Shown one piece after another: positions 12,734-35,389 of a stretch of 64,000 nt of DNA. The translations under genes and the position numbers were made by a program. Source of the stretch: Leptotrichia sp. oral taxon 223 (GTDB lineage: Bacteria; Fusobacteriota; Fusobacteriia; Fusobacteriales; Leptotrichiaceae); assembly GCF_013394795.1 (NCBI RefSeq), contig NZ_JABXYU010000001.1, positions 744,001 to 808,000 on the forward strand, in the 5' to 3' direction. A model generated the notes under the pieces. It was not told where the DNA came from and searched no databases. It worked only from the letters and a program-made list of their open reading frames with translations. Each line of letters opens with the position of its first letter. Position 1 is the first letter of the stretch.

Positions 12734-12889
12734 AACATTTCCTCCCTGTATCTGCTTTCTTTAATTAATGAAATTTACCTTACATTAAATTTTAACTTGA
12801 AATACGAAAAAATCAAGTTAATTTTATCATTTTTCTTCAAATTGAATAAAATGTAGCTGATTTTTTGTCAATTAAGTTTTAAGTCAAGA

Positions 12890-13345
12890 TCACCCTTCAA
12901 AAGGGTCTTCATATTCCTTTACACTTAATCTGTCCATCGCTATATCATGTTTCTCCTGTTCGGCTATATATTTTTTTATTGTTGCTTCATTTAAGCCTAC
13001 TGTGCTTACATAATATCCTTCTGACCAGAAATGTCTGTTTCCAAATTTATATTTTAAGTTTGCATGCTTATCAAACATCATCAATGCACTTTTCCCCTTC
13101 AGATATCCCATAAAACTTGATACACTTATTTTTGGTGGTATGCTTACCAGCATATGCACGTGATCTTTCATCAGATGTCCTTCTATTATTTCAACTCCTT
13201 TATATTCACATAATCTTCTTAAAATTTCTCCCACACTTTTTCTGTATTGACTATATATAACTTTTCGTCTATACTTAGGTGTAAATACTATATGATACTT
13301 ACACATCCATTTAGTATGAGACAGGCTATTAGTTTTATTAGCCAT
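12890..13345 (-). CDS. tnpA: IS200-type transposase (Y1 HUH, TnpA)
   Basis: A 151-residue IS200/IS605-family TnpA. It has the HUH motif (KDHVHMLVSIPP, residues ~61-72) and the catalytic Tyr in KKYIAEQEKHD near residue 126. The starting phrase (KYHIVFTPKYRRKVIY) and RHFWSEGYYVSTVG are standard for this family. It transposes single-stranded DNA by recognising end hairpins. No tnpB follows, so this is an IS200-like element. GAAAGGAAGGTG precedes the ATG. The frame appears intact. Confidence 0.93.
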   Translation of the reverse strand: MANKTNSLSHTKWMCKYHIVFTPKYRRKVIYSQYRKSVGEILRRLCEYKGVEIIEGHLMKDHVHMLVSIPPKISVSSFMGYLKGKSALMMFDKHANLKYKFGNRHFWSEGYYVSTVGLNEATIKKYIAEQEKHDIAMDRLSVKEYEDPFEG

Positions 13346-13485
13346 ATAAACACCTTCCTTTCATTAATAGTAGCTTAAACCTATTATAACGGAAGGTGTA
13401 TTTTGTTGCAAAATTACGTTTCCGCGCCCGCATAGCGGGTGGTTTTATGTTTCGCACGCTTTGCGTACTCAACTGACTAAAGCCA
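13346..13485 (-). mobile_element. IS200 upstream end with hairpins
   Basis: Upstream of tnpA lie a CCCGC-ATA-GCGGG hairpin (13427-13439) and a smaller CGCTTTGCG palindrome (about 13453-13461), both GC-rich in an AT-rich setting. IS200 elements carry subterminal hairpins bound by TnpA, so this is likely the left end of the element. The exact ends are not resolved. Confidence 0.5.
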
Positions 13486-13489
13486 ATAA

Positions 13490-13626
13490 AAAAAGAATAC
13501 CCTCATGCAAGAGTATTTTTCCTCAAAATCCACAATGGACGAGCTTTACAAGATACGTAAAAACTATGATATTTATATGGATAAAGAGGAGGTAATTAAT
13601 TTCTTACCTCTTCTACCTTTGGATTT
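13490..13626. other. Spacer with hairpins between IS200 and the protease gene
   Basis: A hairpin with A/T-rich arms (AAAAAGAATAC... / ...GTATTTTT, about 13490-13520) could terminate either flanking transcript. A second, AAGAGGTAA / TTACCTCCTCTT on the minus strand (about 13586-13612), follows the protease stop codon at 13627. No gene assigned. Confidence 0.4.
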
Positions 13627-15963
13627 TTATAAATTAACATTAATATTTTCAGATATTTTTATATTATTATGCCAAAAATTATATTCATCAAGTTTTTGTG
13701 TAATACCATTATAGACATTACAAGTATTAGTTGGATCTTTAATTGTAATGATTAAGCAAAACTCTTGACTTAATTCTCTATTTTCAATAACTGCTCTATC
13801 TTCAATGCTACTTCTGTAAGTACCATCTATTGTAAGATACCATTTTTTATCAGAAGTTGTATATTTTATTTTGTTCCCATCTGTTAACTCTGATGTATCT
13901 ACAGCATATTTTTTTACTGGATAGTATTTATCTCCATACTGAATTAGCATTCTTTCTTTTAATGCAAAATCTTTTGATGATTCTTTCATTTTAACCTTAC
14001 TGTACAATGAACCTATCAGTATATTTTGAGTACCACTTCTTCCAATTGGATTTAAAATACCATTTTTGCTTGTATCCCTAGGTATTTTTTCATCATAAGA
14101 ACCAAATCTTACATCTATATTTGACTGACAATATTCAAATCCTTGAGTTGGATCTAAAATAGGATCATACACAAGTGTTACTATCACTTGAAAATTAAAG
14201 AACTCATTCTTTACCAAACATTCTGGCATAGGAAAATCTTTAATATCTATGAAGTTTCCTTTTGGTAAAACATCACGCAATATTAGTGTCGCTTCATTTG
14301 GAGAATTATATAATATATTATGAACTGTATCAGGTAATCCAAAACCAAGATATTTAGTTCTTTCAAATTCTGGTATTTCTGTATTCTTAGGATAACTAGC
14401 TGAATGAATTATTAAGCTTTTCAATAACAATGAATCAAATTCCTCATCCATTTCGTTTAATAAACCTGCAGCTAAAGCAGCCACTCTAGGAGTTGAGAAA
14501 CTAGTTCCTGCTTGTTCAACAATATCTCCATTTTTAGAAAATGATTTTACACCACCTTGGATAATCTTTCTGCATGAGTTAACTCCAGCATTACCACCTA
14601 AATGTACAATATCAGGTTTTATAATATAAGCTGGACCTGGACCTCTTCTTGAAAATGGTGATAAATTATATGGCTCAGATATCCAACCATTCTCTTTTTT
14701 ATCAGCAATGGATCCAACCACCAATGATCTAACAGAATCAGCTCCTTCATGTAATTTTCCTATAGCATCTCCATTAGCAAAATTCGTACAATTTCCAGTA
14801 GATTTACATATCAAAACATTATACTCATCTTGAATATCGTCCAATGCAATAGCAAAATCGCTAAATTTTTGTTCAGATATTTCACGAACAATACTTATTG
14901 ATAAATTCCATATCTTTATTTCTTTATAATTATTTTTTATAACTTCTCTAATATTTTGTATTAATTCATCTTCCTCTATACTTTCTTTTTGCGTATCAGG
15001 AAAAATTGCAGCATCAAATACTCTTATATTTTTAGCTCCAACAACTTCTTCACCTTGAAGTTCATCTCCATATGTAATAACACCAGCAACAAATGTTCCA
15101 TGATTTTCTAATAGTAGTTCATTTGGATATGGTGAATTTCTAACTCCATAAATCCACGACTGTAAAGGGTCTATCCTACATATTCCATTATCTAAAACAC
15201 CTACAATTTCACTTTTTTTCTCACTATCATATTCTTTGATTTCTATACTATCTTTTTTATTTAATATATCCAAATTGATTGATATATGTGGCATGGGAAC
15301 AAACTCTTCTGCTAAGTCAAACAATGTATTGTTTATAAGTTTATCAATTTGTAGGTTAGATATATCTTGCAATTTATATATTATAAGTGATTTCGTATAA
15401 TTTGTTTTTATAAATTCAATCTTTTCATTTCTTAAAAACATCTCAAATTTTGCTTTATGACTTTTATTAGTGGAAAAGTCATTAAAATTAAAAAGTTTTA
15501 CCTTATAGTTAGAAATGCCTTCACTTTTATATGCAATAGGCTTATATTTCATGATATTATCAATACCAGAAATTCCATACGCATTATTTTTAACATCACT
15601 TATTTTTTCTTCAATTTTAGCTCCATCTGTTTGAGAATCCACACGAATAACTAAAGTATTTTCATCTGTGACTCCAATCACATTATTCTTGTTAGTAAAA
15701 AAAATATTTTCAATTTTCCTTCTATGACTTTTAGCATGTGCATCTCTATTTAACTTTACTTCAATTATTACTGGTATATCTCTTTCATTCCAATTTTCTT
15801 CTTCTAATACATCCTTTATAACTCGCGATAATGCCACAGATTTTTCATATAGTTCTTCACCATGAAGAACCCATTTAGGAAGTTCTTTTCCACCACCACC
15901 TTCTACTCTTTGCTTATCCTCTTCTCGTTTAGCAAAAAATTTGATTGGTAATGTTTCTTTCAT
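13627..15963 (-). CDS. Subtilisin-like S8 serine protease, IetS-like
   Basis: A 778-residue protein without a signal peptide, so cytoplasmic. The catalytic triad of the S8 family is clear: Asp in IVGVLDNGIC (residue ~256), His in LENHGTFVAGVI (~289) and Ser in QAGTSFSTPRVAALAAG (~485), with the oxyanion Asn in STGNCTNFAN. About 250 residues precede and 280 follow the peptidase domain. An AAA ATPase gene ends two bases upstream of its start. This AAA-ATPase plus subtilisin pairing is that of ietAS, first described in plasmid incompatibility/maintenance in Agrobacterium and later as an antiphage system. In that model the protease is the toxic part and the ATPase controls it. Confidence 0.85.
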   Translation of the reverse strand: MKETLPIKFFAKREEDKQRVEGGGGKELPKWVLHGEELYEKSVALSRVIKDVLEEENWNERDIPVIIEVKLNRDAHAKSHRRKIENIFFTNKNNVIGVTDENTLVIRVDSQTDGAKIEEKISDVKNNAYGISGIDNIMKYKPIAYKSEGISNYKVKLFNFNDFSTNKSHKAKFEMFLRNEKIEFIKTNYTKSLIIYKLQDISNLQIDKLINNTLFDLAEEFVPMPHISINLDILNKKDSIEIKEYDSEKKSEIVGVLDNGICRIDPLQSWIYGVRNSPYPNELLLENHGTFVAGVITYGDELQGEEVVGAKNIRVFDAAIFPDTQKESIEEDELIQNIREVIKNNYKEIKIWNLSISIVREISEQKFSDFAIALDDIQDEYNVLICKSTGNCTNFANGDAIGKLHEGADSVRSLVVGSIADKKENGWISEPYNLSPFSRRGPGPAYIIKPDIVHLGGNAGVNSCRKIIQGGVKSFSKNGDIVEQAGTSFSTPRVAALAAGLLNEMDEEFDSLLLKSLIIHSASYPKNTEIPEFERTKYLGFGLPDTVHNILYNSPNEATLILRDVLPKGNFIDIKDFPMPECLVKNEFFNFQVIVTLVYDPILDPTQGFEYCQSNIDVRFGSYDEKIPRDTSKNGILNPIGRSGTQNILIGSLYSKVKMKESSKDFALKERMLIQYGDKYYPVKKYAVDTSELTDGNKIKYTTSDKKWYLTIDGTYRSSIEDRAVIENRELSQEFCLIITIKDPTNTCNVYNGITQKLDEYNFWHNNIKISENINVNL

Positions 15964-15965
15964 TT

Positions 15966-17063
15966 TTATTCACCCCTTACTTTTTTAGATATCATCTGTA
16001 CCTTTCTTAGAGAAAATCCATGACTTTGTAATTCTCTATGGGTCATTCCTCCTTGAATTAAAAATTTGATGAAATCTTCTTCATTAGTTATCGAATGATT
16101 CTTAAATAAAAAAGTTTCTCTTAAAATATCAAATGAAACAATCTCTTTTTTTTCATTTATTACAGCATTTCTCATAGAATTATTCATAATAGTGTTAATA
16201 TCCGAATGACTTAATCCAATTAATGAAGTTGCTAAATTCTCAATTTTCTTGTCTGTTATATTAAATTTAAATTTTGATGTACTAATACATATATTAAGAA
16301 GTATATTAATTTCAAATTCCGTAGGCTTATTTACACTTAATACTCGATTAAATCTACGCCAAATCGCAGGATCTAGTAATTCATGATGATTTGTTGCAGC
16401 AATTATAATACTATCTTTACTAAAAACATCTATATTCTGAATAAGGCTATTTACAACTCTTTTTAATTCACCTGTTTCATTTTTGTCATCTCTTATTTTA
16501 GCAATAACATCAAATTCATCTAAAAACAAAATACACTCCTGCCTTGAAGCAAAATCAAATATTTTCCTGATATTTTTTGCCGTACTTCCCAACAAAGATG
16601 AAATCATTCCATCCAATCTCACTGTCAATAATGGAAGACATGTCTGCATAGATATGTATTGTGCTATCGAAGTTTTTCCGCATCCTGGTGGCCCATAAAG
16701 AAGCAAAGTACAAGAATCATCTATTCCAGCTTTTAATAATTTATCCCTATTTTCATAACCCTTTATAAAATCTCGAACTTCATTTGTAACTTCATTATTT
16801 AAAATTAATTTCTCTCTATCAATAATCGGGTAACAAATATCAACCATATCCATTCTACTTTCACCATCAACAGGTTTAGATGATAATGAATCTAAAGATA
16901 ATATACTTCCTCTTTTTTTTGATAGTAAATTATTTATTTTTCGTGCCAATGATAAGTCGCCAGTATTTTCTAAATTTTTAGCTAATATTTTAGAATAATT
17001 AAAGACCTTTTCCTTATCTCCAGATAATGCACCTTCAATTATTTTAGAAATCTCTGTATACAT
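15966..17063 (-). CDS. AAA+ ATPase, IetA-like partner of the S8 protease
   Basis: A 365-residue AAA ATPase. The N-terminal ~100 residues are helical. The ATPase core has Walker A GPPGCGKTS (residues ~126-134), pore-loop-like DGMISSLLGSTAKNI, Walker B ILFLDEFD, sensor 1 IIIAATNHHELLD and Arg fingers in AIWRRFNRVL. The second ATG (17063) is chosen because GGAGG lies 8 bp upstream; a GTG nine bases earlier overlaps the ribosome site. The TAA is two bases before the protease ATG, so the genes are translationally coupled, as in ietAS. Confidence 0.88.
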   Translation of the reverse strand: MYTEISKIIEGALSGDKEKVFNYSKILAKNLENTGDLSLARKINNLLSKKRGSILSLDSLSSKPVDGESRMDMVDICYPIIDREKLILNNEVTNEVRDFIKGYENRDKLLKAGIDDSCTLLLYGPPGCGKTSIAQYISMQTCLPLLTVRLDGMISSLLGSTAKNIRKIFDFASRQECILFLDEFDVIAKIRDDKNETGELKRVVNSLIQNIDVFSKDSIIIAATNHHELLDPAIWRRFNRVLSVNKPTEFEINILLNICISTSKFKFNITDKKIENLATSLIGLSHSDINTIMNNSMRNAVINEKKEIVSFDILRETFLFKNHSITNEEDFIKFLIQGGMTHRELQSHGFSLRKVQMISKKVRGE

Positions 17064-17084
17064 TCCATCCACCTCCTACTTTTT

Positions 17085-17113
17085 ATTATATATTATTTTT
17101 ATACTTATTTCAA
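17085..17113 (-). promoter_or_regulatory. Promoter of the ATPase-protease pair
   Basis: On the minus strand TTGAAA (17108-17113), 17 bp and TATAAT (17085-17090), placed 22 bp before the ATPase start. This is a strong sigma-70-type match, so the pair is probably expressed constitutively as its own unit. Confidence 0.6.
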
Positions 17114-17184
17114 TATCTTTTGTTATTATAATTGTATTTTTCGTTATTATTTTTTACATATCGTTATCAAGGTAATAAAAAAGA

Positions 17185-17917
17185 GGTTGTCTCAAAATGA
17201 TTAAAATTTTGAGTTCAGCTTCTATTTTTTTTTATTTTGACGTATACTTGAATTCAAGTTTTTGTTTATTTGCACACGTATATGTATCGGTTTCTTCATC
17301 AAACGACATATTTTCCGCCTTAGAAATATCCTGTTTAAATTTTCGAGTTTTCTACTTTTCATAATTTTGTGGTTTTGTATATGGAGTATAATTATTATTA
17401 AAAAGATATTCATAGTTCTCTTCACTTTCATATCCTGCATCTGCAATAATATTTTTAAATTTCAAGTTTTTACTTTCCAATACTGATAAAAATGGAATAA
17501 GCGTTCTTACATCCGTAGGATTGGTGAACAGATCCAGTCCTACAATATATTCAGAATTTACGTTTATCTATAAATTGTATGCAGGTTTCAGCTGCCCATT
17601 TTTCATGTAGTCCTCCTTCATTCTCATAAACGTTGCATCCCTGCCTGTTTTTAGAGTATGCTTGCATTAAATATCTATAGTCCAATCCCTCCAATAATTT
17701 GCTAATTACTCTAACAGGTGATGATTCGGAGATATTAACTCCAATATCCATAGGCGAAAACAATTGATAATTTGAAAAAATGTAGTACAATTAATTGAAT
17801 GGTTATTGTTTTTTGTCATAATTCAATTATACCATTTTACCGAGATTTTATTTCGTTTTTTTCTTTTTTTAAACAAAAAAAGCTGAACTCAAAATTTTAA
17901 TCATTTTGAGACAGCCC
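17185..17917 (-). mobile_element. Internally deleted IS1182-family element
   Basis: Terminal inverted repeats of about 37 bp (GGTTGTCTCAAAATGATTAA... at 17185 and its reverse complement ending GAGACAGCCC at 17917) enclose broken transposase pieces on the minus strand. The N-terminal piece, 17551-17790, contains NYQLFSPMDIGVNI...SPVRVISKLLEGLD. A downstream piece at about 17225-17460 reads ADAGYESEENYEYLL...YTPYTKPQNYEK in more than one frame. Most of the catalytic DDE region is missing, so the element cannot move on its own but its ends look intact. Confidence 0.85.
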
Positions 17918-17959
17918 TTATTTCTTCTATTTTTGAGACATTTCCATTTTTTATGTTTA

Positions 17960-20653
17960 TTATTTAACCTTGATACTCAAAACCTGACAAGTTTTTACAT
18001 TATTAATTTTAATTTTATTTCCAGCAAAACTGAATTCAACATTATCCATAACTGTTTCTTCATCAAATTTTACTAAAGATGTATTTTTAATATCATCGTG
18101 ATATATAATGTCAAAATCAGTAGACTTTTTATCATCAGGATTATATACTCTAATAATTAATGCATTTTCCTTTTCTGCTTTTTTCACAGTGCTGAGAATA
18201 CAATTTCTATTTTCTGAAGAAAATATTGAATAATCAAATGGAACATCCTGAATTTCAGGTTTATTCATTAAAAAGAAAATATCCACATTTTTAAATTCCG
18301 CAGCCTGATAATAATAGAAAGGAGTTAAGTATTCCTTAGATATATTCGAAATTTTTGAAATTGAATATTCATTCTTTCCAATAGAAATAGCAAAATTAAA
18401 CTTCAGATTTTTCAGCAGGTTTGCATCAGGTGTTTCCCAGTTAGCCATTCCTGAAGCTCTTCCAGGTCTATCTTTAAGCTCTGCTTTTCCCATTTCTGGT
18501 GTTGATCTGAATAAAGTGAGTGCTATTGTATCAAATTTTTCACCTGTAATCTGATATTCCCTTACACAATCTGTTATAATGCTTACATTTTCATGGTCAT
18601 TAGCAAGAGATACAAAAGATTGCATTGGTTCTATTGTTCTAGGTTTTTCATTCCAGCTATTTTCCCGCCAGTTTTCAACTTCAGAAAGATAAACAGGCCT
18701 TCTAATTGTTCCAAATTGCTGATCAGCAATAGATTCAACACTTTCTATTCCTGTTTTAAACAATACACGTACACGATGTTCTATAGCTTTATTTTCAACT
18801 TCTATATCTACTTTTACAAGAGAACTGTCTTTTTCCAGTGATAGAGTTACCAAAAATTCTATCTGGATATTATCTTGTTCCTGTTCTCTTGATGTCAAAT
18901 TATGAGGAATATTCATTTTTACAGAATATTTTATTTTATTTAACAGCGAATTTTTTTCTGTTTCCAATATTTCGATTTCAGAATTTTCACTTGTTAAAAT
19001 CCTGTCGTTATAAGGCTCTGAATAATCATAAGTATCTCCTGCATCTCCAGAATCTTCAAAAATCAAAAAACCTTCTTTTTCTAAATTATTCTTTTTATCT
19101 TTTATGATTATTGAACCATTTTTCTGAACTCTCACATTCAAAATTTCATTTTCAATTTGATTCATTTCAGTACTGCATTCATAAACCTTAACAGCTGACT
19201 CTTTTTTTCTCGTAAATAGTGTTCTGTATCCTAAAGGTAACATGTCTTTCAGGTAAATCAGCAACTCAGTTTTATATATTTCTGCATTTTCCTTTATCCA
19301 ACGGGGATTATCATTAGTATTGAATCCTACTTCCGATTTCATTTTATTTTTTATTCTTTCCTCAAGCTTTTCACTTTTTAGAACTTTGGTTTCGTATATA
19401 TTACCATCAGTATCGTAAATTTCTACATCAGTAAAAGGAGTAAAAATTTCAGTCTTTAAAACTCCACTTCTTCTGTATGGAAGAAAATTATATACTTGAA
19501 ACTGAAAAATATCTTTTTCAGGAATAGCTGATCCTATTTCTCTCATCTTTAAATCATTCAGATTATCCATTAGAGATTTTACAGTATCATTTCTATATTC
19601 AATACTGTTATTTGTTTCATCAGAATTACACATACCGATACTGTCATGAGCGGCATTTTCAGCCATAAGCTTCCATGCCTTTTCAAAAACTTTATTTTCA
19701 TATTCAAAGCCTGATTTATATGCTATTGAACTTAAAGGCTCCGATATATTTACTATAAGATTTTCATTCTTATTATTCTTTATCTTTAAGTCAGCTCTTG
19801 TAGAATATATAGATTTATGAACCCTGCTGAATTGTCCCGATGTCATTTCCCCTTTTACAGTATCATACCGAAATCCATTGTTTTCCGCTTTCTCCATTAC
19901 ATTATCAATGGTAGATATGTAAAAATTACTATCAGGATTAAGCTTATTAAGTTTTTCTATAATTTCAGGAAGATTTTTTCTAATTGGTCTCTGATCTTCA
20001 CCATTATATAATATCAATGTCCCTATTAGAGATCTTCTGTCTGTTTCTTCCTTCAATTTCGCCATTAAATTATTCAAACTATCTGTTTCAGATGTAAAAT
20101 AAACAAAATTTCCATATCTGTCAAGATACATATTGAAAACCCTGCTTCCATCAGGAGATTCCCAATAAAACTCATTTTTAGGATAATGACTATCCCCTAG
20201 CCCTCTTTTAAAGGTATTGTATTTTATGTTAAAACCATTAAGCAACTGTGGCATCTGAGCCGACTGACCAAAAGAATCAGGCATATATCCTGTTTTCATA
20301 TATGCTCCAAAATCTTTTGCCCTTTCTATTCCATAATACAAATTCCTTATAATGGATTCTCCGCTTATTACCATCTGGTCTGTCTGTGTATACCATGGTC
20401 CTATTATAAGTTTGCCTTCTCTAACAAGCTTTTTTATTCTATCTTCATCATAGGGATGAAATTCAAGATAGTCATCTATAATGGATAGCTGCGCATCCAG
20501 AAGAAAATGACTGAAGTTTTTATTGTTTTCCAGTACATCAAATATTTCCTTGAAATGATTCAGGGAATATATTTTAGAACGGGAAGTTGTAAAGTACCAT
20601 TCCCTGTCCCAGTGTGTATGCGGGATAATCGGAAAATCATATTTTTTATTCAT
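17960..20653 (-). CDS. mngB: GH38 alpha-mannosidase, MngB-like
   Basis: About 897 residues, glycoside hydrolase family 38. The N-terminal phrase IIPHTHWDREWYFTT with metal ligands His and Asp, the segment GKLIIGPWYTQTDQMVISGESIIRNLYYGI and the nucleophile Asp in GYMPDSFGQSAQMPQLL follow E. coli MngB closely. MngB cleaves 2-O-(6-phospho-mannosyl)-D-glycerate to mannose-6-phosphate and glycerate. There is no signal peptide, which fits a cytoplasmic phospho-sugar substrate. It starts one base after the EIIC stop; an ATG four codons earlier (20665) overlapping EIIC is the alternative. Last gene of a five-gene leftward operon. Confidence 0.88.
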   Translation of the reverse strand: MNKKYDFPIIPHTHWDREWYFTTSRSKIYSLNHFKEIFDVLENNKNFSHFLLDAQLSIIDDYLEFHPYDEDRIKKLVREGKLIIGPWYTQTDQMVISGESIIRNLYYGIERAKDFGAYMKTGYMPDSFGQSAQMPQLLNGFNIKYNTFKRGLGDSHYPKNEFYWESPDGSRVFNMYLDRYGNFVYFTSETDSLNNLMAKLKEETDRRSLIGTLILYNGEDQRPIRKNLPEIIEKLNKLNPDSNFYISTIDNVMEKAENNGFRYDTVKGEMTSGQFSRVHKSIYSTRADLKIKNNKNENLIVNISEPLSSIAYKSGFEYENKVFEKAWKLMAENAAHDSIGMCNSDETNNSIEYRNDTVKSLMDNLNDLKMREIGSAIPEKDIFQFQVYNFLPYRRSGVLKTEIFTPFTDVEIYDTDGNIYETKVLKSEKLEERIKNKMKSEVGFNTNDNPRWIKENAEIYKTELLIYLKDMLPLGYRTLFTRKKESAVKVYECSTEMNQIENEILNVRVQKNGSIIIKDKKNNLEKEGFLIFEDSGDAGDTYDYSEPYNDRILTSENSEIEILETEKNSLLNKIKYSVKMNIPHNLTSREQEQDNIQIEFLVTLSLEKDSSLVKVDIEVENKAIEHRVRVLFKTGIESVESIADQQFGTIRRPVYLSEVENWRENSWNEKPRTIEPMQSFVSLANDHENVSIITDCVREYQITGEKFDTIALTLFRSTPEMGKAELKDRPGRASGMANWETPDANLLKNLKFNFAISIGKNEYSISKISNISKEYLTPFYYYQAAEFKNVDIFFLMNKPEIQDVPFDYSIFSSENRNCILSTVKKAEKENALIIRVYNPDDKKSTDFDIIYHDDIKNTSLVKFDEETVMDNVEFSFAGNKIKINNVKTCQVLSIKVK

Positions 20654-20654
20654 A

Positions 20655-21839
20655 TTAATACTCATCCACTTCCAGCTTACCATCTTTTATAAGCTTATTT
20701 CTGTACAGCACATTACATACTGCAATTATTATTGATCCTACAGCTATTCCTATCATATATGCAGGAAGATTTTTTACAAGAGGCCATGCCCAGACTGCTG
20801 ATTCAGGAAACCATTGTACTGCACCTAAAGCTATTCCTGAAAATGCCCCTATAACCGAAGAAACTACGTATAAAGGAATTGTAAATCCAGGATTTTCAAG
20901 TGCAAAAGGAATTGCTCCTTCTGAAATTCCCATAAAAGCAAGGAAAATGGATGTCTTACCTGCATCGTAAAATTCACTGTTATAAACTCTTCTTCCAACT
21001 AATTTCTTGTCTATCAGAGTTGACAGTCCAAGACCTATTGATGGAGTAACTATTGCTATTGTTCTTGCTGTAATCGGAAGAACTTTCTCAGTAGTAAATC
21101 CTAAAGCCACGAATCCTGCAGCCTTATTTACAGGCCCTCCTAAATCAAAAGCTGTAGTTGCCGAAAGTACAAGAGCATATGCAAACTGTCCTGCTGCTCC
21201 TGCCGCTTCAAGAAGTGCTCTAATTTGGAGATTTATCCATCCTCCAACAGGAGTTATTACAAATACCATCACAAACATACAGAAAAGCGAAGAAAGTAAA
21301 GGTATTAGAAATGTAGATTTAAATGCAAGCCATTTTTTTGGTAAATTGATGCTCTTATTTAAATATTTTACAAAATACCCTATTATCATTGCAATAATAA
21401 ACGCCCCTAAAAATCCTGAAGGAACCGGTGTAATTTTATCCAGAACTCCATCAACCATTCCTATAGTGGCTACAGGCTTATTTGCAACGTAACCTCCTAT
21501 AAATCCTGCAGCAAGGGCTGTCTTACCACCTATAGAATTTGCCACAAATGCCGCAAACATTGGGATAGCAAAACCAAATAATGTAAATCCAAAACTTTCC
21601 ATCAATGAAGCCAATTTTAATAACTGTAAGTTCATTCCTGTATACTGTCCTGTCTTTATTGCATCCAAAATTGATACACTTGGATCAATTTTAAATATTA
21701 CGTAAGGAATTACCTGAGAAAATGCACCAATAAGTCCTCCCATTATAAGTACAGGTATCATATAGGATATACCTGTCATAAGATGTTTATAAAATTCCTG
21801 CCAGAAACTGTTTTTTCTTTTTCTTTTTAATTGAGCCAT
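20655..21839 (-). CDS. PTS fructose-family EIIC component (mannosyl-glycerate)
   Basis: A 394-residue membrane protein with about ten hydrophobic segments and family phrases HLMTGISYMIPVLIMGGLIGA, GGKTALAAGFIGGYVANKP and GISEGAIPFALENP. This is the permease of the fructose/mannitol PTS family, which carries the sugar through the membrane during phosphorylation. In E. coli the equivalent MngA fuses A, B and C domains; here they are three genes. The linked MngB-like gene indicates 2-O-alpha-mannosyl-D-glycerate as substrate, though another mannosyl compound is possible. Confidence 0.87.
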   Translation of the reverse strand: MAQLKRKRKNSFWQEFYKHLMTGISYMIPVLIMGGLIGAFSQVIPYVIFKIDPSVSILDAIKTGQYTGMNLQLLKLASLMESFGFTLFGFAIPMFAAFVANSIGGKTALAAGFIGGYVANKPVATIGMVDGVLDKITPVPSGFLGAFIIAMIIGYFVKYLNKSINLPKKWLAFKSTFLIPLLSSLFCMFVMVFVITPVGGWINLQIRALLEAAGAAGQFAYALVLSATTAFDLGGPVNKAAGFVALGFTTEKVLPITARTIAIVTPSIGLGLSTLIDKKLVGRRVYNSEFYDAGKTSIFLAFMGISEGAIPFALENPGFTIPLYVVSSVIGAFSGIALGAVQWFPESAVWAWPLVKNLPAYMIGIAVGSIIIAVCNVLYRNKLIKDGKLEVDEY

Positions 21840-34621: not shown

Positions 34622-35389
34622 ATGATTGCGACATTATGTTACCTTGAAAAAGATAATAAATATCTAATGCTATACAGAAATAAGAAAAAAATCGATATAA
34701 ATAAAGGGAAATGGATTGGCGTTGGTGGAAAACTGGAAACAGGGGAAACACCTGAGCAATGTTTAATACGGGAAGTCCAGGAGGAAACAGGATACAAGCT
34801 GAACAGTTATAAATACAGAGGGCTTGTAATTTTTAATTACAATGAAGACGAGCCTTTATTCATGTATGTTTATACAAGTTCCGATTTTGCCGGGATGGAA
34901 AAGGAATGTGATGAGGGGGATTTGAAATGGATTCCGAAAAATGAAATTTTGGATTTGGAATTGTGGGAAGGCGACAAAATATTTTTAGAATTATTGTTTA
35001 AAAATACACCATTTTTTTATTTGACTTTAAATTATGAAAATGACAATTTATTGAGCTCAAAACTAGAATTTAAAGAAAAATACAGCTGTTTTGAAGTTTT
35101 TGTTCCAGAAAATTATGTGGAAAAAATTGTGGAAAACTTACAAAAATACAATCTTTTGACAGAAGGCTTTTATGCAGATGTTTATTCTACAATTGATGGA
35201 ATTGGACATTGGAAAACTTTGGAAGGTGGGAATCCTTTTGACGGAGAAGTTGGAAAAGCGAGCGTTGCCAATGAAAAAATTATGAAATTTAGAGTAAAAA
35301 AAGAATTTGAGGAGCTGGCGTATTATTTAGTGAAGGAAGCACATCCTTATGAAACTGCGGTGATTAACGTCTTCAGAATGGAAGTGTAG
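34622..35389 (+). CDS. Nudix hydrolase fused to a YqfO/NIF3-insert-like domain
   Basis: A 255-residue two-domain protein. Residues ~1-130 are a Nudix domain with the full box GKLETGETPEQCLIREVQEETGY, as in MutT-like enzymes that hydrolyse oxidised dNTPs or other nucleoside diphosphate derivatives. Residues ~155-255 (CFEVFVPENYVEKIVENLQ...GHWKTLEGGNPFDGEVGKA...EAHPYETAVINVFRM) match the PII-like domain found inserted in NIF3/YqfO proteins. The substrate cannot be read from sequence. The fused second domain may bind a regulatory ligand. Confidence 0.85.
   Translation: MIATLCYLEKDNKYLMLYRNKKKIDINKGKWIGVGGKLETGETPEQCLIREVQEETGYKLNSYKYRGLVIFNYNEDEPLFMYVYTSSDFAGMEKECDEGDLKWIPKNEILDLELWEGDKIFLELLFKNTPFFYLTLNYENDNLLSSKLEFKEKYSCFEVFVPENYVEKIVENLQKYNLLTEGFYADVYSTIDGIGHWKTLEGGNPFDGEVGKASVANEKIMKFRVKKEFEELAYYLVKEAHPYETAVINVFRMEV

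Follow-up and report, generated by a model that had tools for sequence, protein, structure and literature searches.

The gene pair at positions 13627-17113 (minus strand) of the window, by which we mean the whole stretch of 64,000 nucleotides from Leptotrichia sp. oral taxon 223 that was analysed, is likely to be an intact, horizontally acquired and autoregulated ietAS addiction/defence operon in which the ATPase IetA restrains the protease IetS. The identity of the genes, their intact active sites, their pairing and co-evolution, the selection acting on them, their mobility and the presence of a repeat array were established here. Toxicity and its neutralization by this pair are predicted by analogy with published relatives. 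Judged from its sequence, the functional unit extends beyond the operon and takes in an upstream repeat array (17122-17167) and the relic of a relaxase gene (13484-13588). The features of the locus, in coordinates of the window, are as follows.

12890-13345, minus strand: IS200-type Y1 transposase in the flank outside the operon (PF01797, 1e-40)
13484-13588, plus strand: relaxase relic recognized by similarity, the final 35 codons of a MobA/VirD2-type gene, convergent with ietS and containing one in-frame stop
13589-13610, minus strand: terminator-like hairpin 3' of ietS, in a region that aligns with the Firmicute copies
13627-15963, minus strand: ietS, cytoplasmic S8 (subtilisin-like) protease of 778 aa, predicted toxin/effector, matching PADLOC PDLC02201
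15966-17063 (ORF to 17072), minus strand: ietA, classical AAA+ ATPase, predicted antitoxin, matching PADLOC PDLC02196
15973-15978, minus strand: ietS ribosome-binding site AAGGGG, seen in the sequence within the 3' end of ietA
15978-16082, minus strand: C-terminal trihelical helix-turn-helix of IetA, predicted DNA-binding tail (residues 331-365, GTG numbering)
17072-17077, minus strand: ietA ribosome-binding site AGGAGG, seen in the sequence
17085-17113, minus strand: sigma-70-type promoter TTGAAA-17-TATAAT, consensus score 11/12
17122-17167, minus strand: phased direct-repeat array, predicted IetA operator, with ATAAC cores at 17167-17163, 17147-17143 and 17126-17122
17174-17930, no strand assigned: insertion-sequence remnant in the flank, with terminal inverted repeats of ~60 bp that are 87% alike

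As the original prediction had it, an AAA+ ATPase gene and a cytoplasmic subtilisin gene lie 2 bp apart as intact ORFs, forming a single operon in the order ietA, ietS. The ietA product counts 365 aa from ATG 17063 and 368 aa from GTG 17072. The ATG is the likelier start, because AGGAGG (17077-17072) precedes it and the GTG overlaps that ribosome-binding site. The single strong promoter that had been proposed, TTGAAA-17-TATAAT, ranked first among 39 promoter-like sites of the scanned region, although such sites were overall no more frequent there than in shuffled sequences. An Rfam search of 13400-17960 returned no RNA match.

Both proteins were assigned by profile searches. Pfam identified Peptidase_S8 in the protease (2e-28) and AAA in the ATPase (4e-31). 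The comparison with IetA and IetS profiles that had been suggested as a check gave full-length PADLOC matches, at 1088 bits for IetS (PDLC02201, residues 1-777) and 443 bits for IetA (PDLC02196, residues 4-365), and PHROGs 3964 and 3757 also matched IetS and IetA, respectively. The IteA and IteS equivalogs NF042959 and NF042956 were the best NCBIfam matches, yet scored below their cut-offs (365/510 and 356/900 bits); the pair therefore represents a divergent clade of the ietAS family, outside the narrow equivalog. In viral contigs, matches were obtained with an alignment as query and none with a single protein. From IMG/VR and other loci, some of them on the same contig, we collected 103 IetS-like ORFs, and an IetA gene was found immediately upstream on the same strand for 100 of them. 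The IetA and IetS trees were concordant (r = 0.89, a value equalled in 0/999 permutations), and both placed the window copy as sister to the Streptococcus anginosus copy. The full triad claimed for the protease is present as D258, H288 and S488; these residues and the oxyanion residue N391 showed no variation among 38 relatives. The same holds across 26 IetA proteins for Walker A, Walker B, sensor 1 and the R239/R240 pair. Profiles, pairing, gene order and co-evolution thus all support the ietAS assignment, and no family of housekeeping ATPase-protease pairs fits better. FtsH, Lon, PAN/proteasome and type VII mycosin/EccA were considered and rejected, since their matches were weaker, partial and far under the cut-offs, and 0/12 congeners carry the pair. 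The expectation that an example from Fusobacteriota would broaden the family found little backing: the existing PADLOC profile accommodates this lineage (1088 bits), another full-length copy resides in a Fusobacteriaceae prophage, and mycoplasmas and Proteobacteria are known to carry such pairs. By kind, the locus is an ordinary member of the ietAS family, one with a well-documented mobile history.

No signal peptide is evident by eye at the start of IetS (MKETLPIKFFAKREEDK...), which is consistent with a cytoplasmic enzyme. Its AlphaFold2 model (pLDDT 85) contains two successive ferredoxin-like (beta-alpha-beta-beta-alpha-beta) segments, residues 65-139 and 153-223, after which come the S8 core and, at the C terminus, a beta domain. 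A phmmer search with the IetS sequence alone reached no solved structure; subtilases were reached only by profile and fold searches, with ProN-Tk-SP (3afg), which combines propeptide, S8 and beta domains, as the best PDB fold match. Segment 153-223 therefore sits where an I9-type propeptide would be, and its secondary structure in the model makes it a putative I9-prodomain-like domain. Residues 1-150 carry the conserved motifs LPIK.F..R and DA.AKSHR. Short-form proteases of Fusobacteriota (~500 aa, 31-38% identical) align from about IetS residue 150 and have no counterpart of this segment. Because these proteins also have no IetA neighbour, the comparison suggests that residues 1-150 form the contact with IetA.

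The short forms, cytoplasmic proteins 31-38% identical to IetS 150-626 with no IetA neighbour in the examined loci, were encountered in Fusobacteriaceae loci L005 (1468-2970), L006 (1489-2997), L010 (1093-2601), L023 (1339-2823) and L024 (1483-2967), and a further one is encoded by F. vincentii NZ_CP084075 (123120-124448). A similar regulator-like gene lies downstream of the short-form gene in L006 and L024. Genome G039 carries both full-length and short-form IetS, and the short-form gene at L026 1504-2996 (genome G070) is split into two overlapping frames and apparently broken.

For IetA, AlphaFold2 predicted (pLDDT 84) a bundle of three helices at the N terminus, then a classical AAA module, and a trihelical tail at the C terminus, and fold search placed the protein in the p97/FtsH/PAN class of AAA proteins. 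A Leu-Gly pore-loop motif is invariant. The tail helices span residues 331-340, 345-350 and 355-365, at a pLDDT of about 90 or more except for the final residues. Tails of orthologous IetA proteins gave weak Pfam helix-turn-helix matches (HTH_23, 5e-5; HTH_50, 2e-5) under the curated cut-offs, and the tail of the window protein matched none of these models, so that its helix-turn-helix rests on alignment and model.

The ATAAC repeats upstream of ietA are spaced 20 and 21 bp, stand at -104, -84 and -63 from the ietA ATG, and end 8 bp ahead of the -35 box. The array occurs once in the 2.58-Mb host genome, and the same array precedes ietA in S. anginosus, Megasphaera, the Fusobacteriaceae prophage copy, Fervidicella and several IMG/VR loci; the ietAS locus of Bacillus timonensis has five ATAAC copies upstream. 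Across ten loci, 22/24 successive ATAAC spacings are 20 or 21 bp. Regardless of motif, a search for chains of at least three identical 5-mers upstream of ietA, covering spacings from 9 to 45 in 57 nonredundant loci, found chains at 20-21 bp in 12/57 loci, compared to 4 to 5 loci in the two bins that overlap this one (19-20 and 21-22) and between 0 and 2 at every other spacing. When 7-mers with one mismatch were used, arrays were detected in 12/58 loci versus 0-1 in shuffled sequences. Arrays at 20-21 bp preceded 11/55 ietA genes versus 0/266 other ORFs in the same loci (Fisher P = 1.5e-9, which is optimistic because some of the loci are related). This strict array test was passed in about one fifth of ietAS lineages only. 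The core varies by lineage (ATAAC, TTCAT, CTTCA, ACGTT, TATTC and ATATC), and in an informal comparison IetA tails of the SLRK/SLRQ type mostly accompanied AAC/ACG cores, and STGK/SSGK tails TTCAT/CTTCA cores. By itself the ATAAC array is not diagnostic: 92 stretches matched in IMG/VR, and 3 of the 80 loci examined adjoin ietA. About half of the arrays away from ietA lie within ORFs, as expected by chance.

The array in the window is probably the operator of IetA, a candidate assignment made from sequence. More generally, and with confidence only slightly better than even, we propose that ietAS is autoregulated across phyla: the C-terminal helix-turn-helix of IetA would bind at least three direct repeats spaced by exactly two helical turns, and the recognition helix would have diverged in step with the motif. 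The array is mentioned neither in the SgiAT report (PMC5006074) nor in the other papers covered by our search, and the combination of array and IetA helix-turn-helix is provisionally regarded as novel. If autoregulation is true, IetA would tie ATP state or oligomer occupancy to operon expression. Sequestration of IetA by the array would then be possible; it might play a part in the incompatibility described for plasmid-borne ietAS and could offer phage or plasmid DNA a route to trigger the system.

Homology at the DNA level extends from 13484 to about 17170, at 86.4% identity to S. anginosus (NZ_CP012719) and 85.6% to Megasphaera micronuciformis, and in both the block includes the array and the relaxase tail. 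The relic is 83% identical over 35 aa (E = 7e-12) to the intact S. anginosus relaxase, which is accompanied by MobC, a helicase and a serine recombinase alongside ietAS; the Megasphaera relaxase is broken, and a Pfam Relaxase was found in locus L011. In the window, the IS200-type element meets the relic at about 13484 and cuts it off. The host 16S rRNA is closest to Fusobacteriota records, at 83-84%, and the genome belongs to another family than the genomes taken to be Fusobacteriaceae, probably to Leptotrichiaceae. The ietS gene is absent from 12/12 congeners; among Fusobacteriota, the IetS profile was matched in 14/98 species, in two of them at full length. All nine aligned congener regions lose homology at about 12,820-12,855, leaving no empty site to compare. 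By these sequence comparisons, the pair was evidently acquired horizontally on a mobile element common to mouth streptococci, with transfer possible in either direction, and the locus is evidently what remains of a conjugative element of Firmicute type. Insertion sequences now enclose it, and the chromosome has been rearranged with a breakpoint at this site. The term stand-alone used in the original prediction hence needs qualifying. Counting against the proposed reading, the ten neighbouring ORFs scanned contain no further clear defence gene. The pair is under purifying selection, as dN/dS relative to S. anginosus is 0.10 and 0.11 for the two genes, values that average over both lineages. A dS of about 0.6 to S. 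anginosus indicates that the two copies did not separate recently, and the dN/dS of about 0.1 together with the intact signals makes the window copy likely functional. The locus records one defence cassette moving among Fusobacteriota, streptococci and Negativicutes via conjugative elements, and ietAS has outlasted the decay of its carrier here.

Several observations concern the surroundings and other carriers. Relative to congeners G006 and G011, the segment from 12.85 to 53.66 kb is inverted or rearranged, their suf cluster (44.2-53.66 kb in the window) lying near fusA2. The breakpoints at 12,850 and 53,660 adjoin the IS200-ietAS-IS block and an rRNA operon. A block beside ietAS (17960-21839) encodes a GH38 mannosidase and a PTS EIIC and was probably acquired too, since the GH38 gene is absent from 12/12 congeners. 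At 34622-35389, residues 8-127 of a 255-aa ORF match the PADLOC candidate PDC-S07 (8e-17). A 77% identical ietAS copy (L181 3684-9882, genome G039) directly follows a prophage lysis cassette of M15 peptidase, DUF1353 and holin, a position typical of lysogenic conversion, and E. faecium plasmid pA15023_P1 (L018 2983-8245), a conjugative resistance plasmid, carries ietAS between two TIR-domain genes.

A 2023 survey described the mechanism of ietAS as still undescribed (PMC9958689). In the model we propose, IetS acts in the cytoplasm as a subtilisin-like protease that has, besides an I9-prodomain-like domain and a C-terminal beta domain, an additional ferredoxin-like domain at its N terminus. IetA, a p97/FtsH/PAN-type AAA+ ATPase and presumably hexameric, would keep IetS inactive, probably through a grip on the N-terminal region of the protease. 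The helix-turn-helix of IetA would bind the ATAAC repeats, which lie two helical turns apart immediately ahead of the -35 box, and IetA would thereby set the expression of its own operon. Loss or diversion of IetA, through element loss or phage takeover, would set IetS free to cleave cytoplasmic proteins, resulting in growth arrest or death before phage multiply. The roles of toxin for IetS and antitoxin for IetA are suggested by homology to SgiAT and the mycoplasma pairs. An antiphage role of the window copy may be proposed from catalogue entries, as the family is listed as antiphage in PADLOC and NCBIfam.

The most serious competitor, possible though less probable than the combined reading, is that ietAS acts as an addiction module only, having stabilized a former mobile element, with antiphage activity absent or incidental. 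A sister copy inside a conjugative element, a further copy directly behind a prophage lysis cassette, the relaxase relic beside the window copy, and characterized relatives that stabilize SGI1 and, from the literature, pTiC58 all agree with this. Pure addiction explains less well, however, that the pair outlived its element under purifying selection and that its homologues are catalogued as antiphage systems. We consider it highly improbable that ietAS is a decaying passenger without present function. Insertion sequences and the relaxase relic do flank the pair at a rearrangement breakpoint, but ORFs, active-site residues, ribosome-binding sites, promoter and array are all intact, and dN/dS is about 0.1, though averaged over both lineages.

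Doubtful as well, if less so, is a role of IetA as an unfoldase that feeds IetS in the manner of ClpXP or FtsH, so that the pair would serve protein quality control or degrade phage proteins directly. The p97/FtsH/PAN class and invariant Leu-Gly pore-loop motif would suit such a machine. In SgiAT and the mycoplasma pairs, however, the ATPase neutralizes the protease and its loss alone is lethal; the pair is missing from 12/12 congeners, unlike a housekeeping machine; and the genome has a separate 785-residue protein, 30% identical in its AAA domain, that is probably FtsH. The array, which was transferred along with the operon, might instead serve some other regulator, encoded by the donor element or by the host. 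We regard this as unlikely: equally spaced arrays with different cores precede ietA repeatedly, in hosts and carriers that are unrelated, where the common factor is the IetA helix-turn-helix tail, and tail types mostly go with particular core motifs in the informal comparison. On the reading that IetA is autoregulatory, the phased array and the helix-turn-helix on an AAA+ antitoxin offer a concrete handle on operon control and on a possible trigger.

Several published relatives were compared with the window pair. In SgiAT (S026-S025) of Salmonella Genomic Island 1, the protease is toxic and the ATPase neutralizing, and post-segregational killing was not obtained with an operon under its own promoter (PMC5006074). 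Activity of the sgiAT promoter was strong in the absence of SGI1 and seemingly greater still in its presence (PMC9927553), and simple repression therefore does not fit. Like the window locus, SgiAT has the ATPase followed by the protease; its two genes are 20 bp apart and are carried by an integrative element. It differs in its enterobacterial lineage, and its report names no helix-turn-helix or autoregulation and, in the passages covered, uses "repeat" for the island ends (PMC5006074). The mycoplasma AAA-ATPase/subtilisin pair A132/T133 is a proven toxin-antitoxin pair (PMC8562856, PMC6755753). It resembles the window pair as a horizontally acquired operon, with proteins of 353 and 757 aa, and differs in its phylum; the passages covered describe no regulation. 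In both SgiAT and the mycoplasma pairs the ATPase neutralizes the protease and losing the ATPase alone is lethal (PMC5006074, PMC8562856, PMC6755753). IetAS of Agrobacterium pTiC58 has a role in plasmid stability and incompatibility (Yamamoto et al. 2009, as cited in PMC5006074). Likened by description, it is also an AAA ATPase antitoxin and subtilisin-like protease toxin forming one module on a mobile element, a plasmid as opposed to the chromosomal window copy; our plasmid comparison used annotated IteS relatives on plasmids other than pTi. The window proteins belong to the PADLOC (PDLC02201/PDLC02196) and PHROGs (3964/3757) families with no apparent difference. The S. anginosus element retains an intact relaxase and serine recombinase, whereas the window retains the relaxase relic only.
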